Part shown: positions 29,977 through 36,881 of the stretch, piece after piece
Position numbering within the stretch: the stretch's first letter is position 1
Layout: each line of letters opens with the position of its first letter
Assembly (NCBI GenBank): GCA_023245895.1
Contig: JAHFJJ010000014.1
Location: forward strand, 1-36,881
Source of the DNA: Candidatus Doudnabacteria bacterium
GTDB taxonomy: Bacteria; Patescibacteriota; Doudnabacteria; UBA920
DNA length: 36,881 bases
Reading direction: 5' to 3'
Made by a program: the position numbers and the translations under genes
The notes under the pieces: model-generated
Seen by the model: the letters and a program-made list of their open reading frames with translations, nothing else
Databases searched by the model: none
What the model was told of the DNA's origin: nothing

Positions 29977-30102
29977 TAGTAATCGCGAAAATACAAATTT
30001 ATATTAATATACGAATCCTTAATCGGAAGTTTATAATATACTCACCGCGTTACGAATCACAATTTTGTATATTATTTTTGATTCGTATTTTCGGGATTAC
30101 TA
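29977..30102. repeat. Inverted repeat element overlapping the 3' end of the receiver gene
   Basis: TAGTAATCGCGAAAATACAAA / TTCGTATTTTCGGGATTACTA (19 of 21 complementary). Confidence 0.8.
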
Positions 30103-30485
30103 TTCAATATCTCGTTAATTTTTGTAACAATCTCATCGGGAGTAAAGTAAGCCTTAACCATGTAACCGTTAGCCTTAAGCCCCTGGGTTTTTAAAATATC
30201 CTGGTTGCTCCAAAGATTGCTTAAAATTATTACCGGCGTATCGGCGAGTTTTTTGTCCGGGTTTCCGCGGATTTTTTGCAGAACCTCAAAGCCGTCCATT
30301 TCAGGCATCATTAAATCCAAAAGCATTAAATCGGGAGGATCCTGGGCAAACATTTCCACTGCCTTCAGGCCGTTTTCCGCGTGGCGCACGCTAAAGCCGT
30401 GTATATTCAGCTTGTGGCTGACAATCTGCGCCATTGCCTGGTCGTCTTCGGCAACTATAATTTTTATTTTTTTGTCTTCGGACAT
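30072..30485 (-). CDS. Stand-alone CheY-like response regulator receiver
   Basis: KIIVAEDDQAMAQIV, PDLMLLDLMMPEMDGFEVLQKIR, PVIILSNLWSNQD. Confidence 0.92.
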   Translation of the reverse strand: MSEDKKIKIIVAEDDQAMAQIVSHKLNIHGFSVRHAENGLKAVEMFAQDPPDLMLLDLMMPEMDGFEVLQKIRGNPDKKLADTPVIILSNLWSNQDILKTQGLKANGYMVKAYFTPDEIVTKINEILNSNPENTNQK

Positions 30486-30694: not shown

Positions 30695-32188
30695 TTACCC
30701 CCCGCAAAACTTTTTAACATCCGCCGGCGCCTCAGCGCAGATTTCTTTGGACTTTTCCGGCGAATACCAAACCGGCAAACGGGGTAAAATAAAAGCGTAG
30801 CAAGCCTGGCGCTCATCAGCTTGCAAAATTTTTGACGCGCAAAATGCCAAAGCTTTTACATATTCCTGCTGGGGCTGTCCGTACTTCATGTGGCCGCCGG
30901 ACAAACCCTCCACGCAGGGCAGGCGCATATCGGCGTTAAGGGACCTGCAAATTTTCAAACCTTCCGCCGCGCCGTAGTCCGGCTTATTCAGGTTTAGCCT
31001 TATCCATTCATGGAACAGGCTAAGCATAACCTGGGGGCGCACAGAATTAACTTTTTTTTCCGCTATGGCCTGGACTAATTTTGCTGACTTTATAAAATCT
31101 GCTTTGGTAAAACGCAAAACTGCCGGAAGCATGTTGGTGTAGCAGGCTTCCAAAAAATTTTCCGGCTGGCCGGGGCAAATATAAAAAGGGTCTTTCTTAA
31201 TTTGCTCAAGGCGGTATTTGGGGTCGCCGGATAAAATTTCAATCGCGTTAAAGGCGCCGGAAACGCAGCGGTAAAGCTTGCCGAACTCGCTGGTGTCCTG
31301 GCCGGCCACGCTTTGGCACATTTGCATGGCAGGCGCCATTATTTTTTCCGCGCTGCCCCAGGCGGTTGGGTTACTGCCGTCCACCGCGCCGTGGCCAATG
31401 CCATGGTAGCAAGCGCCTTCGGCGTCCGTAGTCTGGCCGGACAGCTGCTTGCCCGCGTAAGCGCAAAAATCTTTGGCTTCCTGGATGTCGCCGCTGGTTT
31501 GGAGCAAGGTTTCCATAAAGCCGTGGTAAAATCCATAACCGCAGTAGGAAGATTTTGCCGAAAGCGCGACATCTTTTTTTTGCGCGAATAACTGGTATGC
31601 CTTTTGCCCGAGCGTATGCGCGTAAGCGTGGCATTCCTGGGCAAAAGCCGGCTGTGTCTGGTAAAAATCCGCCAAAAGCGAAAAAGCCGCGTCCAGGCCT
31701 TTGTCTTTTAAAGCGGCATCAATTTGTTTTTGCCAACATTGGGGGGTTTGCCCGACTGTCGCGCAATCTATATTAGTAACTGACGACTGTCCTGCCGCCA
31801 CAACATTTACACTCCCCCGGTGGCTGGAAAAAAGATGGTCGTGGTATTTCCAGGAACCGACTTTGTTAAAAACAAACTGCCAGGACTGACTTTCCTGTAT
31901 TGGCTGCTTGGGGTCAAATTCCGGATAAATGTCGTGAGTGGGGTGCAGGTCCGAAGCCGGCCAGAAATCTTTTCCCGCGCTAGAGCTAAAAACCACGATA
32001 TCCCCCTGGTGGATAGTAATTTCATTGGGCTCAAAGCCGTCCTTGGTTAAAACTACAGAATGTTTGGATCCCGGTAAAACCTCGGCCGGCTTGTTTGGGG
32101 CGGGGTTATGGTAATATTTTAAATACCAAAAAATACCCCCTGCCAGAAGTATTAAGCAAAGCAAGATTGTGGACTTTTTACTCATCAT
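30695..32188 (-). CDS. Exported cupredoxin-like + Cys/His-rich (CxHGxGH) domain protein B
   Basis: N-terminal TM, VLTKDGFEPNEITIHQGDIVVF...DLHPTHDIYPEFDP...YHDHL; ECHAYAHTLG, SYCGYGFYHGF, CYHGIGHGAV; start MMSKKS at 32188. Confidence 0.8.
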   Translation of the reverse strand: MMSKKSTILLCLILLAGGIFWYLKYYHNPAPNKPAEVLPGSKHSVVLTKDGFEPNEITIHQGDIVVFSSSAGKDFWPASDLHPTHDIYPEFDPKQPIQESQSWQFVFNKVGSWKYHDHLFSSHRGSVNVVAAGQSSVTNIDCATVGQTPQCWQKQIDAALKDKGLDAAFSLLADFYQTQPAFAQECHAYAHTLGQKAYQLFAQKKDVALSAKSSYCGYGFYHGFMETLLQTSGDIQEAKDFCAYAGKQLSGQTTDAEGACYHGIGHGAVDGSNPTAWGSAEKIMAPAMQMCQSVAGQDTSEFGKLYRCVSGAFNAIEILSGDPKYRLEQIKKDPFYICPGQPENFLEACYTNMLPAVLRFTKADFIKSAKLVQAIAEKKVNSVRPQVMLSLFHEWIRLNLNKPDYGAAEGLKICRSLNADMRLPCVEGLSGGHMKYGQPQQEYVKALAFCASKILQADERQACYAFILPRLPVWYSPEKSKEICAEAPADVKKFCGG

Positions 32189-32712
32189 TCTTTTTTCCGC
32201 CTCCCAAAAAAAGCCCAAACCGCGCCCGCTCCTATAAATAATCCGGCCAGGCCGCTTAGTACCAATGGGGCGGAGGTTAAAGAAGCAACGGATTTCTCCA
32301 TTTCAGCCGGCGCAACAGTAAGGGGAAACGACGCTTCCACGAAAGTTTTTTCCGAATTTTCAAAACGTGCGCTTAAAGTGTAGTTGCCTTCTTTGGGGAA
32401 AATAAACATCATCCCGGTTGCGCCAAACTCAGGTTTGTGTATTCCCGAGGCAAAAACCGTCTGCTCGCCCTGGGAAACCCTGACCCAAACGTCGCTGAAG
32501 TCTACCGGTATATTTACCTTGACATCGTAAGCGTTAAAATCCAGCCTCTGGGACTGCCCGGCAACAAAATTAACCGGGTCGTAGCCTACATCCACCTTAT
32601 AACCGTCGACCTCTTTTTCCCACGAAGCCCCGGTCTGATGGGCTTTGGTAAAACGCATAGGCAGGGCAAGCCCTAAAAATGCCAGGCTGGCTATTGCAAA
32701 AATTTTTGTCAT
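32185..32712 (-). CDS. Exported beta-sandwich-like protein with C-terminal TM; possible N-terminal His metal site
   Basis: Signal peptide MTKIFAIASLAFLGLALPMRFTKA then HQTGASWEKEVDGYKVDVGYDPVNFVAGQSQRLDF; TM near C-terminus. Confidence 0.65.
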   Translation of the reverse strand: MTKIFAIASLAFLGLALPMRFTKAHQTGASWEKEVDGYKVDVGYDPVNFVAGQSQRLDFNAYDVKVNIPVDFSDVWVRVSQGEQTVFASGIHKPEFGATGMMFIFPKEGNYTLSARFENSEKTFVEASFPLTVAPAEMEKSVASLTSAPLVLSGLAGLFIGAGAVWAFFGRRKKE

Positions 32713-32721
32713 ATTGTTAAG

Positions 32722-33798
32722 CTATTTAGCCGAAATTTGGCTCATTAAATTTTTTACCTGTTCAGAATTTGGCTTGGCGGCCAGTTCAGCTTGCAGGGCT
32801 TGGCGGGCCTGGTTATAATCTTCCTTTGCAATATAAGCTTGAGCCAGGCCAAAATAGCCTCCAAGGGCTGGATTTAAGTCCGCGGATTTTTTAAAAACAT
32901 CCACAGCCTCGCCATATTTTTTTTCCTCTAAGTAAATATAGCCGAGGCCGTTGTAAACTTCGCTCTTGGGTTTTATTATTGCCAAATAATTTTTGAAAGC
33001 TTGTTCCGCTAAATCATTTTTCTTTTCAAAGCTATATAACCAGCCCAGGCCTAAGTAGGCTTCGCTGTGAGGATCGAGCGCCAAAGCTTTTTTAAACATT
33101 TTTTCCGATTCCTCATATTTGCCGGTATCCCGATAAATATCGCCCATGCCCATATAATTAAAGGCGCTTGGATTGAGTTCTAAAGCTTTTTTAAAACTTT
33201 TGACCGCCTCGTCCATTTTGCCCTCATCCCGGTACAAATAGCCAAGGCCATAAGAATAGAGATGGTCGTCTTTCGGGTTAAGCTCCAGCGCCTGTTTAAA
33301 AGCAGCCTCGGCTTCGGGATACTTATTCCAGTTTCGGTAAAGTTTGCCAATGTCCACCCTTAGCTCCGCGCTTTTTGGATTTAAAGCTATGGCCTTGTTA
33401 AAATAAATTTCAGATTTTTCATATTGCCCGCGGTATCTGTATAGATTAGCTAAAGCCTGTAAAGCGGCCAAATCTTCGCCGTTTAATTTAAGGGCTTTTC
33501 CCAAAATCTCCTGGGCCTGGTCATATTTTCCGTGGGCAAAATACAGGCTTCCCAGCTGGACTAAAACGGCAACATTGTCGGGATATTTCTGCAACTCTTG
33601 CTGATAAGCTAATTCCTGCGGATTGTCCGCGGCCACCGCAATGTCCTTGTGCCAATCCGCGGCAGACTCAATTTTATTCTGCGAAACCGGCGGGATTTTA
33701 GCTTGTCGATGCTTAGCGGACCATAACCAAAAAATGCACAAAACGGCAAAGATTAAAAAAATCGCGGTAAGCTTTATTTTTTTAAGTTTGAATTTCAT
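32722..33798 (-). CDS. Membrane-anchored TPR protein
   Basis: Repeated ~34-aa TPR units (AEAAFKQALELNPKDDHLYSYGLGYLYRDEGKMDEAVKSFKKALELNPS...); start MKFKLKK at ~33798. Confidence 0.92.
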   Translation of the reverse strand: MKFKLKKIKLTAIFLIFAVLCIFWLWSAKHRQAKIPPVSQNKIESAADWHKDIAVAADNPQELAYQQELQKYPDNVAVLVQLGSLYFAHGKYDQAQEILGKALKLNGEDLAALQALANLYRYRGQYEKSEIYFNKAIALNPKSAELRVDIGKLYRNWNKYPEAEAAFKQALELNPKDDHLYSYGLGYLYRDEGKMDEAVKSFKKALELNPSAFNYMGMGDIYRDTGKYEESEKMFKKALALDPHSEAYLGLGWLYSFEKKNDLAEQAFKNYLAIIKPKSEVYNGLGYIYLEEKKYGEAVDVFKKSADLNPALGGYFGLAQAYIAKEDYNQARQALQAELAAKPNSEQVKNLMSQISAK

Positions 33799-33802
33799 AA
33801 AA

Positions 33803-34915
33803 TTAAACCTGAATGGCTGAACAATAAGCCTGGTCCTGTTCATCTTTAAATGACCGGCAAAAAGCCTTGACATCGACAGCCTTTCCGCTGGATACAAAAG
33901 CCCTGGCCTCGCCGAAAAAACCCTGCATGTAAGCGTGCCGGCTGGCGGCAGGCAAAGTAAAAATTATTTGGGGTATTTTTACGGCCTGATTTTCTGTTAA
34001 AGTATGCTGGCTGTCTACCGCCCCGAGGATTTGTACGCAGCCTTCCTGTAAACTAACGGGATAAGCGCTGTTCAGGCATTTTTTAAAGGAAGCGTCGGGC
34101 GTGCCTGAAGAGTCATAGATTATCCTGCTTAACTGCAGGGAGCAGCCCTTCTGGTATTTGGCTTCCAGCGAAACGCACAAATCCAGGGGGTTATTTTCAG
34201 CCAGCTTTATTGGCGGGCCGTTCGGGAAAGCCAAACCGGTATCGCCGTCCACCCCCTGAACCAAAAAGGCCGTTTCGCTGAATACCCCTTTATAGCATTC
34301 GGTTAAATTATTTACCGGCCCCGGCAATAAACGGTCGCAGTCTTTGAGCGAATTGTTTATTTGCAAAGAGCGATGCATGGTGGCGTGCCCCATGCCGTGG
34401 TAGCAGTCAGCTCCTGGCGTGCGTTTTTGCACCTCGGCGCAAAATTCTTTAAGTTCGGTAATATAATCCAGATTTTTTATGGTAATCTCCGCCTCCACGC
34501 CGTGCTGGAACGCTCCGCCGCAGAGCTGTGAGTCTACTGAAGCCAGCTGGGAAAGTTTGTACTTGCCCGAGGAGTAGGCATTATGGCCAAGCAGGTGCAT
34601 AAGAGTGTGGCACTGGTTAATGTTAAACTCATTGTTTAAAAACCCCTGGTGTATGAGAACGATAGAATTATCCAGGCCATAGTCCAAAAAAACCTGCTTG
34701 GCATTGTAGTCCAAAGTTAAAAAAATGCCCTTGCCTTTAGCTTCATTTTTTATCTTTTGCAGCTCTGTAGCGGCATCAAAAACTTTGGCAGTCTTAGCGG
34801 ACAGTTGAGCCGGTAAGCGTGAAGGGAGCCTGCCAACGGCAATAAGATAAACCGCCCCGACGAAGCCCAGGATGGACAAAACCCGGATTAAATATTGGCG
34901 CGGTTTATTTTTCAT
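33803..34915 (-). CDS. Exported Cys/His-rich (CxHGxGH) domain protein C, no cupredoxin
   Basis: N-terminal TM; QCHTLMHLLGHNAY, LCGGAFQHGVE, DCYHGMGHATM, ECYKGVFSE. Confidence 0.75.
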   Translation of the reverse strand: MKNKPRQYLIRVLSILGFVGAVYLIAVGRLPSRLPAQLSAKTAKVFDAATELQKIKNEAKGKGIFLTLDYNAKQVFLDYGLDNSIVLIHQGFLNNEFNINQCHTLMHLLGHNAYSSGKYKLSQLASVDSQLCGGAFQHGVEAEITIKNLDYITELKEFCAEVQKRTPGADCYHGMGHATMHRSLQINNSLKDCDRLLPGPVNNLTECYKGVFSETAFLVQGVDGDTGLAFPNGPPIKLAENNPLDLCVSLEAKYQKGCSLQLSRIIYDSSGTPDASFKKCLNSAYPVSLQEGCVQILGAVDSQHTLTENQAVKIPQIIFTLPAASRHAYMQGFFGEARAFVSSGKAVDVKAFCRSFKDEQDQAYCSAIQV

Positions 34916-34927
34916 TTAAAAATTTTT

Positions 34928-36400
34928 TTATGCGCGGCATAAAGCTTTATATTTTTCCGGCAGGCTGTCGCAGGCTTCGGTAGCCTTTTTGACCGTCTGG
35001 CCGACAATCATTGAATAACAAGCTTGCTCCTCCTGGGCAGTAAGCAGCGGGTCTTTGCAAAAATTCAGGCCTTTTATATACTCCTGCTCGGGCTGCCCGT
35101 GGGCTAAAAAGCCGACCAAAACCCCGTTGAAACAAAATGTACGGAGATACTCGGGCAGGGACCGGCAATCCAGAAGGTTTTTTTTCTGGCTGGCTTTGGC
35201 AATGTCGTCCTGCATAAAATCAGCGGCCATTTTTGATATGGAATCTATTTTTATTTCGCGGCTAATATCCTCTTTCAGCAGCCAACCCGCGGCTTTCTTA
35301 AAGTCATGCCCGGAAAATTCCGAGGTTAAACCGGTAAATTCAAAGTAGCAGGAAATTTTGTATTTTTGTTCCTGTTTCCTGCATTCCGCGTAAACATCTT
35401 TGGGATCTACGGACAGTTTGTAATCCTTATGGTAGGCGTTTTGCTGCATGGCGTTAAACGCGCCATCATAGCAATTGCGCAGGTCCTGGGGCGAGTCCAG
35501 CGCGGCCTCGCAGGTCTTAAACCCTGGACTAATCATGGCTCCAAAATCCCCCCACAGGGCCGGATTGTCAATGTTAACCGAACCATGTCCAATGCCGTGC
35601 ACGCAGCTGGAATAAGTGCCGCCGGCTAAGCTGCCCAGCTGTTTGGTAGCGTATTCGCAAAAAGCCTTGGTTTGTTTTATGTCGCCGGAAGTTTGCAGGA
35701 GCCTTTCTATAAAACCGTGGAAAAAACCGTAGCCGCAATAGGAAGTTTCCTTCCTCAAAATAATTTCTTTTTGGTCTTTAAATTTTTCAAACGCGGCCTT
35801 GCCTAAAATATGCGCCCAGCCATGGCAGGCTTTGGGAATTTCCGGGTCGGTCTTGTACAATTCGACAAAAAGCTCAAAAGCGGCATCCAAACCGTCTTCC
35901 TTAACGGCTCTTTGCAGCTGCTCGTCCCAACATTGCTGTTTTTTATTCTTGTCTATATTAGCGCAATTGCCTACCGCGGCTTTAACTTTTTTTTCTGTAC
36001 CAAAAGCGCCGTTTGCAGCCACCACAATACTGCCCGTGTTGGTGGGCGAAAGGTGGTCATGGAAATACCATGTGCCGGGTTTGTTAAAAACAAAGCTCCA
36101 GGAATCTCCAGGTTTGATTTCGCGCTTAGGGTCAAACTCCGGATAAATAGCATGGGTAGGATGTAAATTAGAAGCCGGCCAAAAGGCTTTGCCCGCGGTC
36201 GTGGTAAAAATAACCGTATCGCCTTGATGGATCGCGATTTCGTCCGGAACAAATCCTTGCTTGGTAAGATTTATAGTATGGGTCGCGCCAAGAGCCACAG
36301 AAACCTGGTTTGACGGCATCGCCTGCTTGCGGTAAAGCAAAAAGCCCACCAGCGCAAGGCCGCATACAATAATCAAAAATTGATTGCGCTTAAGATTCAT
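34928..36400 (-). CDS. Exported cupredoxin-like + Cys/His-rich (CxHGxGH) domain protein A
   Basis: NLTKQGFVPDEIAIHQGDTVIF...NLHPTHAIYPEFDP...FHDHL; ACHGWAHILG, SYCGYGFFHGF, CVHGIGHGSV. Confidence 0.8.
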   Translation of the reverse strand: MNLKRNQFLIIVCGLALVGFLLYRKQAMPSNQVSVALGATHTINLTKQGFVPDEIAIHQGDTVIFTTTAGKAFWPASNLHPTHAIYPEFDPKREIKPGDSWSFVFNKPGTWYFHDHLSPTNTGSIVVAANGAFGTEKKVKAAVGNCANIDKNKKQQCWDEQLQRAVKEDGLDAAFELFVELYKTDPEIPKACHGWAHILGKAAFEKFKDQKEIILRKETSYCGYGFFHGFIERLLQTSGDIKQTKAFCEYATKQLGSLAGGTYSSCVHGIGHGSVNIDNPALWGDFGAMISPGFKTCEAALDSPQDLRNCYDGAFNAMQQNAYHKDYKLSVDPKDVYAECRKQEQKYKISCYFEFTGLTSEFSGHDFKKAAGWLLKEDISREIKIDSISKMAADFMQDDIAKASQKKNLLDCRSLPEYLRTFCFNGVLVGFLAHGQPEQEYIKGLNFCKDPLLTAQEEQACYSMIVGQTVKKATEACDSLPEKYKALCRA

Positions 36401-36881
36401 TATTTTGAACTATTGGCCAGACACCTGTTTTTCCAGCCGCCCGGCAGGCTGTTGCATAACTGGTAAAACTGCTCAGACCCCGGTTTAAAATTAAATGTGG
36501 AATAAAATACCAGCTCATTAAAGCACTGGTCCTGGTCATCGCTCCGGCCGGCAGATTTGCAAACTGCGGCTGACTTTTCTATATTAGCATAGTCGGTTTC
36601 AATTAGCCTAGAAGCGGTATTGGCAAAACAGCGGCCGCTCACGCCCGCGGGCAGTTGGGAGCAGTAATCTTTCATAAAATTGGTGTCAAACTGAACCTGG
36701 GCTGTCACCACATAAAATAAATCCGTGTAGCAGGAACTCTGGTCGCTGGCAGATTTAAAATGGCGGCAAAACCCGACTACGCCTGTGGGAGTCATAATTT
36801 CCGCGCGGTATAAAGGCCAGCCTTCGCTCCAGCAGGAAAGCGCCTCTTGGCCGGAAAATCTTGAACAATACGAGATGAGTT
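36400..36881 (-). CDS. Partial Cys-rich protein D, C-terminal part (gene continues past window edge)
   Basis: Frame stays open to 36881 (LISYCSRFSGQEALSCWSEGWPLYRAEIMTPTGVVGFCRHF...); spaced Cys pattern; stop overlaps the start of protein A (TAATG). Confidence 0.7.
   Translation of the reverse strand, partial: LISYCSRFSGQEALSCWSEGWPLYRAEIMTPTGVVGFCRHFKSASDQSSCYTDLFYVVTAQVQFDTNFMKDYCSQLPAGVSGRCFANTASRLIETDYANIEKSAAVCKSAGRSDDQDQCFNELVFYSTFNFKPGSEQFYQLCNSLPGGWKNRCLANSSK

Follow-up and report, generated by a model that had tools for sequence, protein, structure and literature searches.

Paralogous exported cysteine- and histidine-rich proteins linked to copper proteins, encoded by an operon in a Doudnabacteria-like genome

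Type-3 copper proteins (tyrosinase, hemocyanin) are helical and hold copper through HxxxH ligands, with six conserved His. Sel1/HCP and TPR solenoids are built of helical-hairpin repeats, and some of them are extracytoplasmic with disulfides. Plastocyanin-type cupredoxins are beta-sandwich proteins with a His2-Cys-Met type 1 site. The Bacillus subtilis protein YcnJ is a CopC-CopD-YtkA importer whose outer CopC domain binds Cu(II) (PMC12362106); the YtkA domain at its C-terminus is a homologue of CtaK, a protein implicated in CuA assembly (PMC13344008). Here we describe an operon on contig JAHFJJ010000014.1 (36,881 nucleotides, analysed over its whole length and called the window below), from a Doudnabacteria-like genome (Patescibacteria). 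It codes for four paralogous proteins, A to D, which share a domain of about 310 residues rich in Cys and His, the Cys/His domain.

The Cys/His domain, like type-3 copper proteins, is helical (as modelled) and carries HxxxH; it differs in its five conserved His instead of six, its multiple predicted disulfides and the absence of a sequence or fold match. It shares helical-hairpin repeats with Sel1/HCP and TPR solenoids, but it has no Pfam match, carries a conserved His site and gives Foldseek TM-scores below 0.3, and A, B and C match no Sel1/HCP or TPR repeat model at E <= 1. The architecture of YcnJ is found again in relatives from Acidimicrobiia, in which the Cys/His domain takes the place of YtkA, since it follows CopC-CopD at the YtkA position. 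It differs from YtkA in having no sequence match to it and in being all-helical, stapled by putative disulfides and equipped with five His; furthermore, the proteins of the window have neither CopC nor CopD. The N-terminal domain of A shares the fold of plastocyanin-type cupredoxins, but its subfamily has four invariant His instead of the type 1 site.

The Cys/His family and its distribution

An earlier note on this DNA had grouped A, B and C by common motifs and suspected D from the spacing of its Cys. The relationship is far beyond chance: a homology search with A detects B (E = 3e-115), C and D (D at 1e-28) are retrieved by a profile made from these two, and D is the reciprocal best hit of full-length proteins from two other genomes, L036_3582 (46%) and L086_16308 (49%). 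A, B, C and D are thus one family. The note did not recognize it as a named one, and it is indeed unnamed and without a solved fold. No Pfam or NCBIfam model matches the Cys/His domain, a profile search of PDB sequences gave nothing (best E 0.51), and Foldseek searches of PDB and a viral library with the domain model returned no match at E <= 0.001, the best being generic HEAT/ARM solenoids (E 0.03, TM-score 0.26). No account of the domain was found in the literature searched.

A scan of genome contigs with a single sequence gave no relatives; a profile of close members gave 117 matches in genome contigs, in which the closest relatives of the window belong to Candidatus Doudnabacteria and a Deinococcales bin is also among the hosts. 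By profile search, the family is present in 21 of 380 genomes from the same phylum as the window, 16 of 347 Actinomycetota, 41 of 150 Gemmatimonadota (27%), 8 of 118 Nitrospirota and 2 of 194 genomes of the Woesearchaeota phylum; there is also one gammaproteobacterial bin (1 of 299 genomes of its phylum), possibly a binning error. Most hosts are metagenome-assembled genomes. The cultured hosts include Kitasatospora purpeofusca (plasmid pKP058, KPHV_86690, E 1e-60, with all five His) and, by tblastn, Gemmatirosa kalamazoonensis. Two matches were obtained in the plasmids searched and none in viral contigs and phages.

Single-copy members are common and widely distributed. Multi-member clusters are found in genomes G038 (six members), G036 (eight), G214 and G339. 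Clusters from other families of the phylum share their orthologous groups with the window: B groups with L036_14829 and L086_15115 (46–55%), D with L036_3582, L086_16308 and L037_11208, and C with L036_4781. The recurrence of these sets in distant genomes indicates that the divergence of the paralogues is ancient, so that of the expansion by duplication proposed in the earlier note the duplication stands and a recent, local expansion does not. Such ancient and individually kept paralogues suggest distinct parts of one system. Another group (L036_2288, L037_13405 and L086_12858) is absent from the window, and its orthologue may lie beyond the contig end.

Conserved histidines, paired cysteines and predicted fold

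Conservation was analysed in 120 sequences with 12–54% identity to B, and residues are numbered as in the B domain. His55, His86, His126 and His130 are invariant (120/120) and His51 is present in 118/120, in the motifs H-x3-H, H-x3-E/Q and H-G-x-G-H. The His withstand the conservation check that the earlier note had set for its own reading. Glu90, four residues after His86, is conserved in 91/120, with Gln at this position in 8/120. Met178 (110/120), Glu179 (103/120) and an R-D pair are also conserved. A further His, located in the loop that precedes C202, was dropped as a sixth core residue because it is present in just 90 of 140 domains.

The Cys behave differently from the His. Those at positions 106, 124, 155, 172, 202 and 213 are invariant, and the others are gained and lost in pairs: C50/C80 are both present in 97 sequences and both absent in 23, C236/C250 in 112 and 8, and C278/C289 in 112 and 3, with no sequence carrying a single member of these pairs. 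For C6/C15 the numbers are 83 and 19, with four single cases. Disulfides predict such pairwise changes and metal ligands would not, so the Cys of the family almost certainly form disulfides; a role as metal ligands was set aside because of this paired loss.

Nearly all members have an N-terminal hydrophobic segment or a lipobox, and the Cys/His domain is therefore considered to be exported. Together with the paired Cys, these export signals support the extracytoplasmic location already assumed in the earlier note. In Gemmatimonadota members, His/Met-rich loops of the HAGHDM type directly follow the motif G-x-F-M-E-N, and in Nitrospira members HHHH loops are found at the same place. His/Met-rich loops are known from copper-resistance proteins.

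The AlphaFold2 model of the B domain, calculated from a 120-row alignment, is all helical (predicted local distance difference test (pLDDT) 92, predicted TM-score (pTM) 0.90). A short helix, a loop and a long helix alternate along the chain, with a Cys pair across most loops. The conserved His sit on three helices of the model, and we infer that the five converge on one site.

Copper partners and proposed function

Long extensions are carried by 58 members, in which Pfam matched partner domains only (NCBIfam agrees): CopC in 20 of the 58, CopD in 14, cytochrome c in 11 and Cupredoxin_1 in 9. These fusions bear out the link to copper that had been proposed. CopC and CopD are fused only in Actinomycetota relatives (Acidimicrobiia) and in none of A, B and C; the cytochrome c fusions are from Thermoleophilia. 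According to hydropathy, the CopCD fusions consist of a signal peptide, CopC, about eight transmembrane helices and then the Cys/His domain, outside. In the trees, which include long branches and some unsure joins, the CopCD fusion forms a single clade of one origin (99*), the cytochrome c fusion arose once or twice, and the cupredoxin fusion requires 10–11 changes, at least 6 of them forced by strong branches. L073/L094 represent a further case, with the cupredoxin at the C-terminus instead. A saccharibacterial member (L135:3238-4956) is fused behind a multi-transmembrane domain, with a cupredoxin gene adjacent.

The N-terminal domains of A and B had been described as cupredoxin-like. As to the fold this is correct, the model of the A domain (pLDDT 97) matching plastocyanin with E 4e-7 and TM-score 0.79 in Foldseek; the Cys ligand of a type 1 site is missing. 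In the subfamily of 54 sequences, HPxH, Asp55 and HDH/HNH are invariant, which gives four His, and Cys is found at a ligand position in 0/54. The cupredoxin of A and B is thus not a blue-copper electron carrier, and with four His it may have a Cu(II)-type site.

On this basis, we consider, with a probability of about 0.55, that the Cys/His domain is an extracytoplasmic copper relay or holding site that exchanges with CopC-CopD or with a four-His cupredoxin. An extracytoplasmic copper site is the reading that agrees best with the five conserved His, the export and the copper partners. Relay or holding is favoured because copper is bound or moved by these partners and because the cupredoxin is unfit as a blue electron carrier. 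The His/Met-rich loops, the stand-alone cupredoxins near family genes in five loci and the neighbours of KPHV_86690 in Kitasatospora, an adjoining 'cytochrome c oxidase assembly protein' and a nearby BlaI/MecI/CopY regulator, also speak for copper. An all-helical hairpin module, stapled by disulfides, would present a metal site of five conserved His on three helices. This site would receive copper outside the membrane and pass it on, possibly with a redox step, the exchange partners being CopC-CopD in the fusions and the four-His cupredoxin in the lineage of the window. There, the members of the ancient paralogue set encoded by the operon probably work jointly, with one cupredoxin for A and another for B. 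We infer copper as the metal, as well as the direction in which it is transferred and the redox step.

Several observations weigh against a copper relay. The Met178-Glu179 pair, kept elsewhere, is absent from A, B and C. Operonic neighbours are not conserved outside the fusions: a Pfam census found nothing strongly recurrent, with cupredoxin as a neighbour in 4/115, and the Nitrospira family gene adjoins unrelated housekeeping genes. The genome of the window encodes heme-copper oxidase subunit I, and bo3 oxidase operons have been reported in Doudnabacteria (PMC8407418). Across 60 relatives, the association of the family with this subunit is not significant (5/12 bearers versus 8/48 others, p = 0.11); without a tie to this subunit, the family cannot be explained by oxidase loading alone. 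Finally, the cytochrome c fusions fit an enzyme equally well as a relay.

These fusions, together with the small cytochrome b5-like genes adjoining members in L118, L123, L132 and L136, keep a redox enzyme in play as a tentative alternative. The five-His site would then be catalytic, type-3-like or polynuclear, with copper (or iron), and would act on O2, peroxide, NO or a metal ion, while cytochrome c or other carriers supply electrons. HxxxH pairs on helices are reminiscent of type-3 copper and diiron sites, and the conservation of M178-E179 and of the R-D pair is also consistent with catalysis. However, a cupredoxin without Cys is a poor electron donor, CopC-CopD is no electron-transfer partner, E90 is replaced by Gln in some members and the M-E pair is lost from the proteins of the window. 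It is doubtful that the family represents a new class of copper enzymes, in which a helical scaffold stapled by disulfides, without known fold relative, holds a polynuclear centre with His ligands. Such an enzyme would work singly in many phyla, as a lipoprotein or an anchored protein, and in some Patescibacteria several paralogues would form a hetero-multimeric machine at the surface.

A structural or adhesive role at the surface with another metal (Zn, Fe), the arrays being surface-layer or matrix proteins, would fit the many paralogues per cluster and their neighbours in L036, L037, L086 and L087, which include TPR proteins and secreted proteins rich in repeats or Cys; it is unlikely, as the fusion partners are of three unrelated kinds, each a copper or redox protein, and single-copy members are common and widespread. 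Binding or handling of heme, also raised in the earlier note, was set aside as highly improbable: the cytochrome c fusion and cytochrome b5-like neighbours are in its favour and His could serve as axial ligands, but CxxCH is absent from all Cys/His domains (0/140), as the note had seen for the window, the domain has no heme-protein match, five conserved His exceed the need of one heme and there are the CopC/CopD fusions.

The operon in the window and its significance

All open reading frames (ORFs) of the operon named earlier were found on the minus strand (table 1). Their tight packing was confirmed in the sequence, with the junctions TAATG between D and A and ATGA between the gene of the 175-residue protein and B. 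The TPR gene probably starts at the ATG at 33798, so that the operon D-A-C-TPR-175aa-B is free of gaps to within about 12 bp. For B, a longer alternative start, TTG at 32218, is possible. The contig ends with the window, and D is not extendable there. Two further family genes are carried by contigs C17 and C34 of the same genome, the C34 copy being fused to a cupredoxin, and contig C28 has a lone cupredoxin.

Table 1. Features of the operon and other genes of the window.
Feature	Position	Strand	Evidence or remark
D, C-terminal part of a family member	36400..36879	-	5' end past contig end; profile match 1e-28
A, signal anchor + cupredoxin + Cys/His domain, 490 aa	34928..36400	-	ORF, homology search, profile, hydropathy
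A cupredoxin domain, HPxH and HDH, without Cys	36014..36295	-	Subfamily alignment, AlphaFold2, Foldseek
A Cys/His domain	34931..35974	-	Family alignment
C, signal anchor + Cys/His domain, without cupredoxin, 370 aa	33803..34915	-	Profile; orthologue L036_4781 (35%)
TPR protein, exported	32722..33798	-	Related TPR gene between family genes in G038 (L036:13768-14832)
175-aa exported protein, C-terminal transmembrane anchor	32185..32712	-	ORF call, relatives search
B, signal anchor + cupredoxin + Cys/His domain, 497 aa	30695..32188	-	ATG start
B cupredoxin domain	31796..32074	-	Subfamily alignment (entry L079)
B Cys/His domain (modelled)	30698..31780	-	AlphaFold2 pLDDT 92, pTM 0.90
B segment with His51, His55, His86, (Glu90), His126, His130 (domain numbering)	31391..31630	-	Conservation alignment
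Stand-alone response-regulator receiver domain gene	30072..30485	-	Immediately downstream of B, same strand
Leucyl-tRNA synthetase, 989 aa	11732..14701	-	Ser_hydrolase match (PF06821, E 1.9e-7) inserted at residues 242–396, between catalytic start and editing domain

The 175-residue protein has no relatives across all fetched loci, and in Pfam it matches DUF6727 alone, below threshold. Its predicted cleavage may leave a His at the mature N-terminus, as in CopC.

Other genes accompany the clusters elsewhere. Small exported cupredoxin-like proteins of another kind, ending in HGPGLYGYxC, flank the arrays in G038 and G036 (L036:1693-2202, L036:6023-6565, L037:14624-15097 and L037:15528-16037). Secreted proteins with long YYSQ/YYQG repeats are encoded near the array (L036:19114-20000 and L037:1-1429), and secreted Cys-rich repeat proteins of 926–966 residues within family clusters (L086:9940-12840 in G214 and L087:8542-11322 in G339). 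The G036 array is bordered by a gene for a DsbA-like protein with a thioredoxin fold (L037:16484-17230), which fits disulfide-rich products. Two of the operonic neighbours of family genes are heliorhodopsins.

The Cys/His domain is present in at least six phyla, including cultured hosts, without a Pfam or NCBIfam model or a solved fold, and through its fusions it is connected with both copper import and respiration. The domain is relevant to two questions: in what way copper is taken over and handed on outside the membrane ahead of CopD-type uptake or oxidase assembly, and for what reason the ultra-small Patescibacteria, most of which are regarded as fermenters, retain as many as eight paralogues in one cluster.

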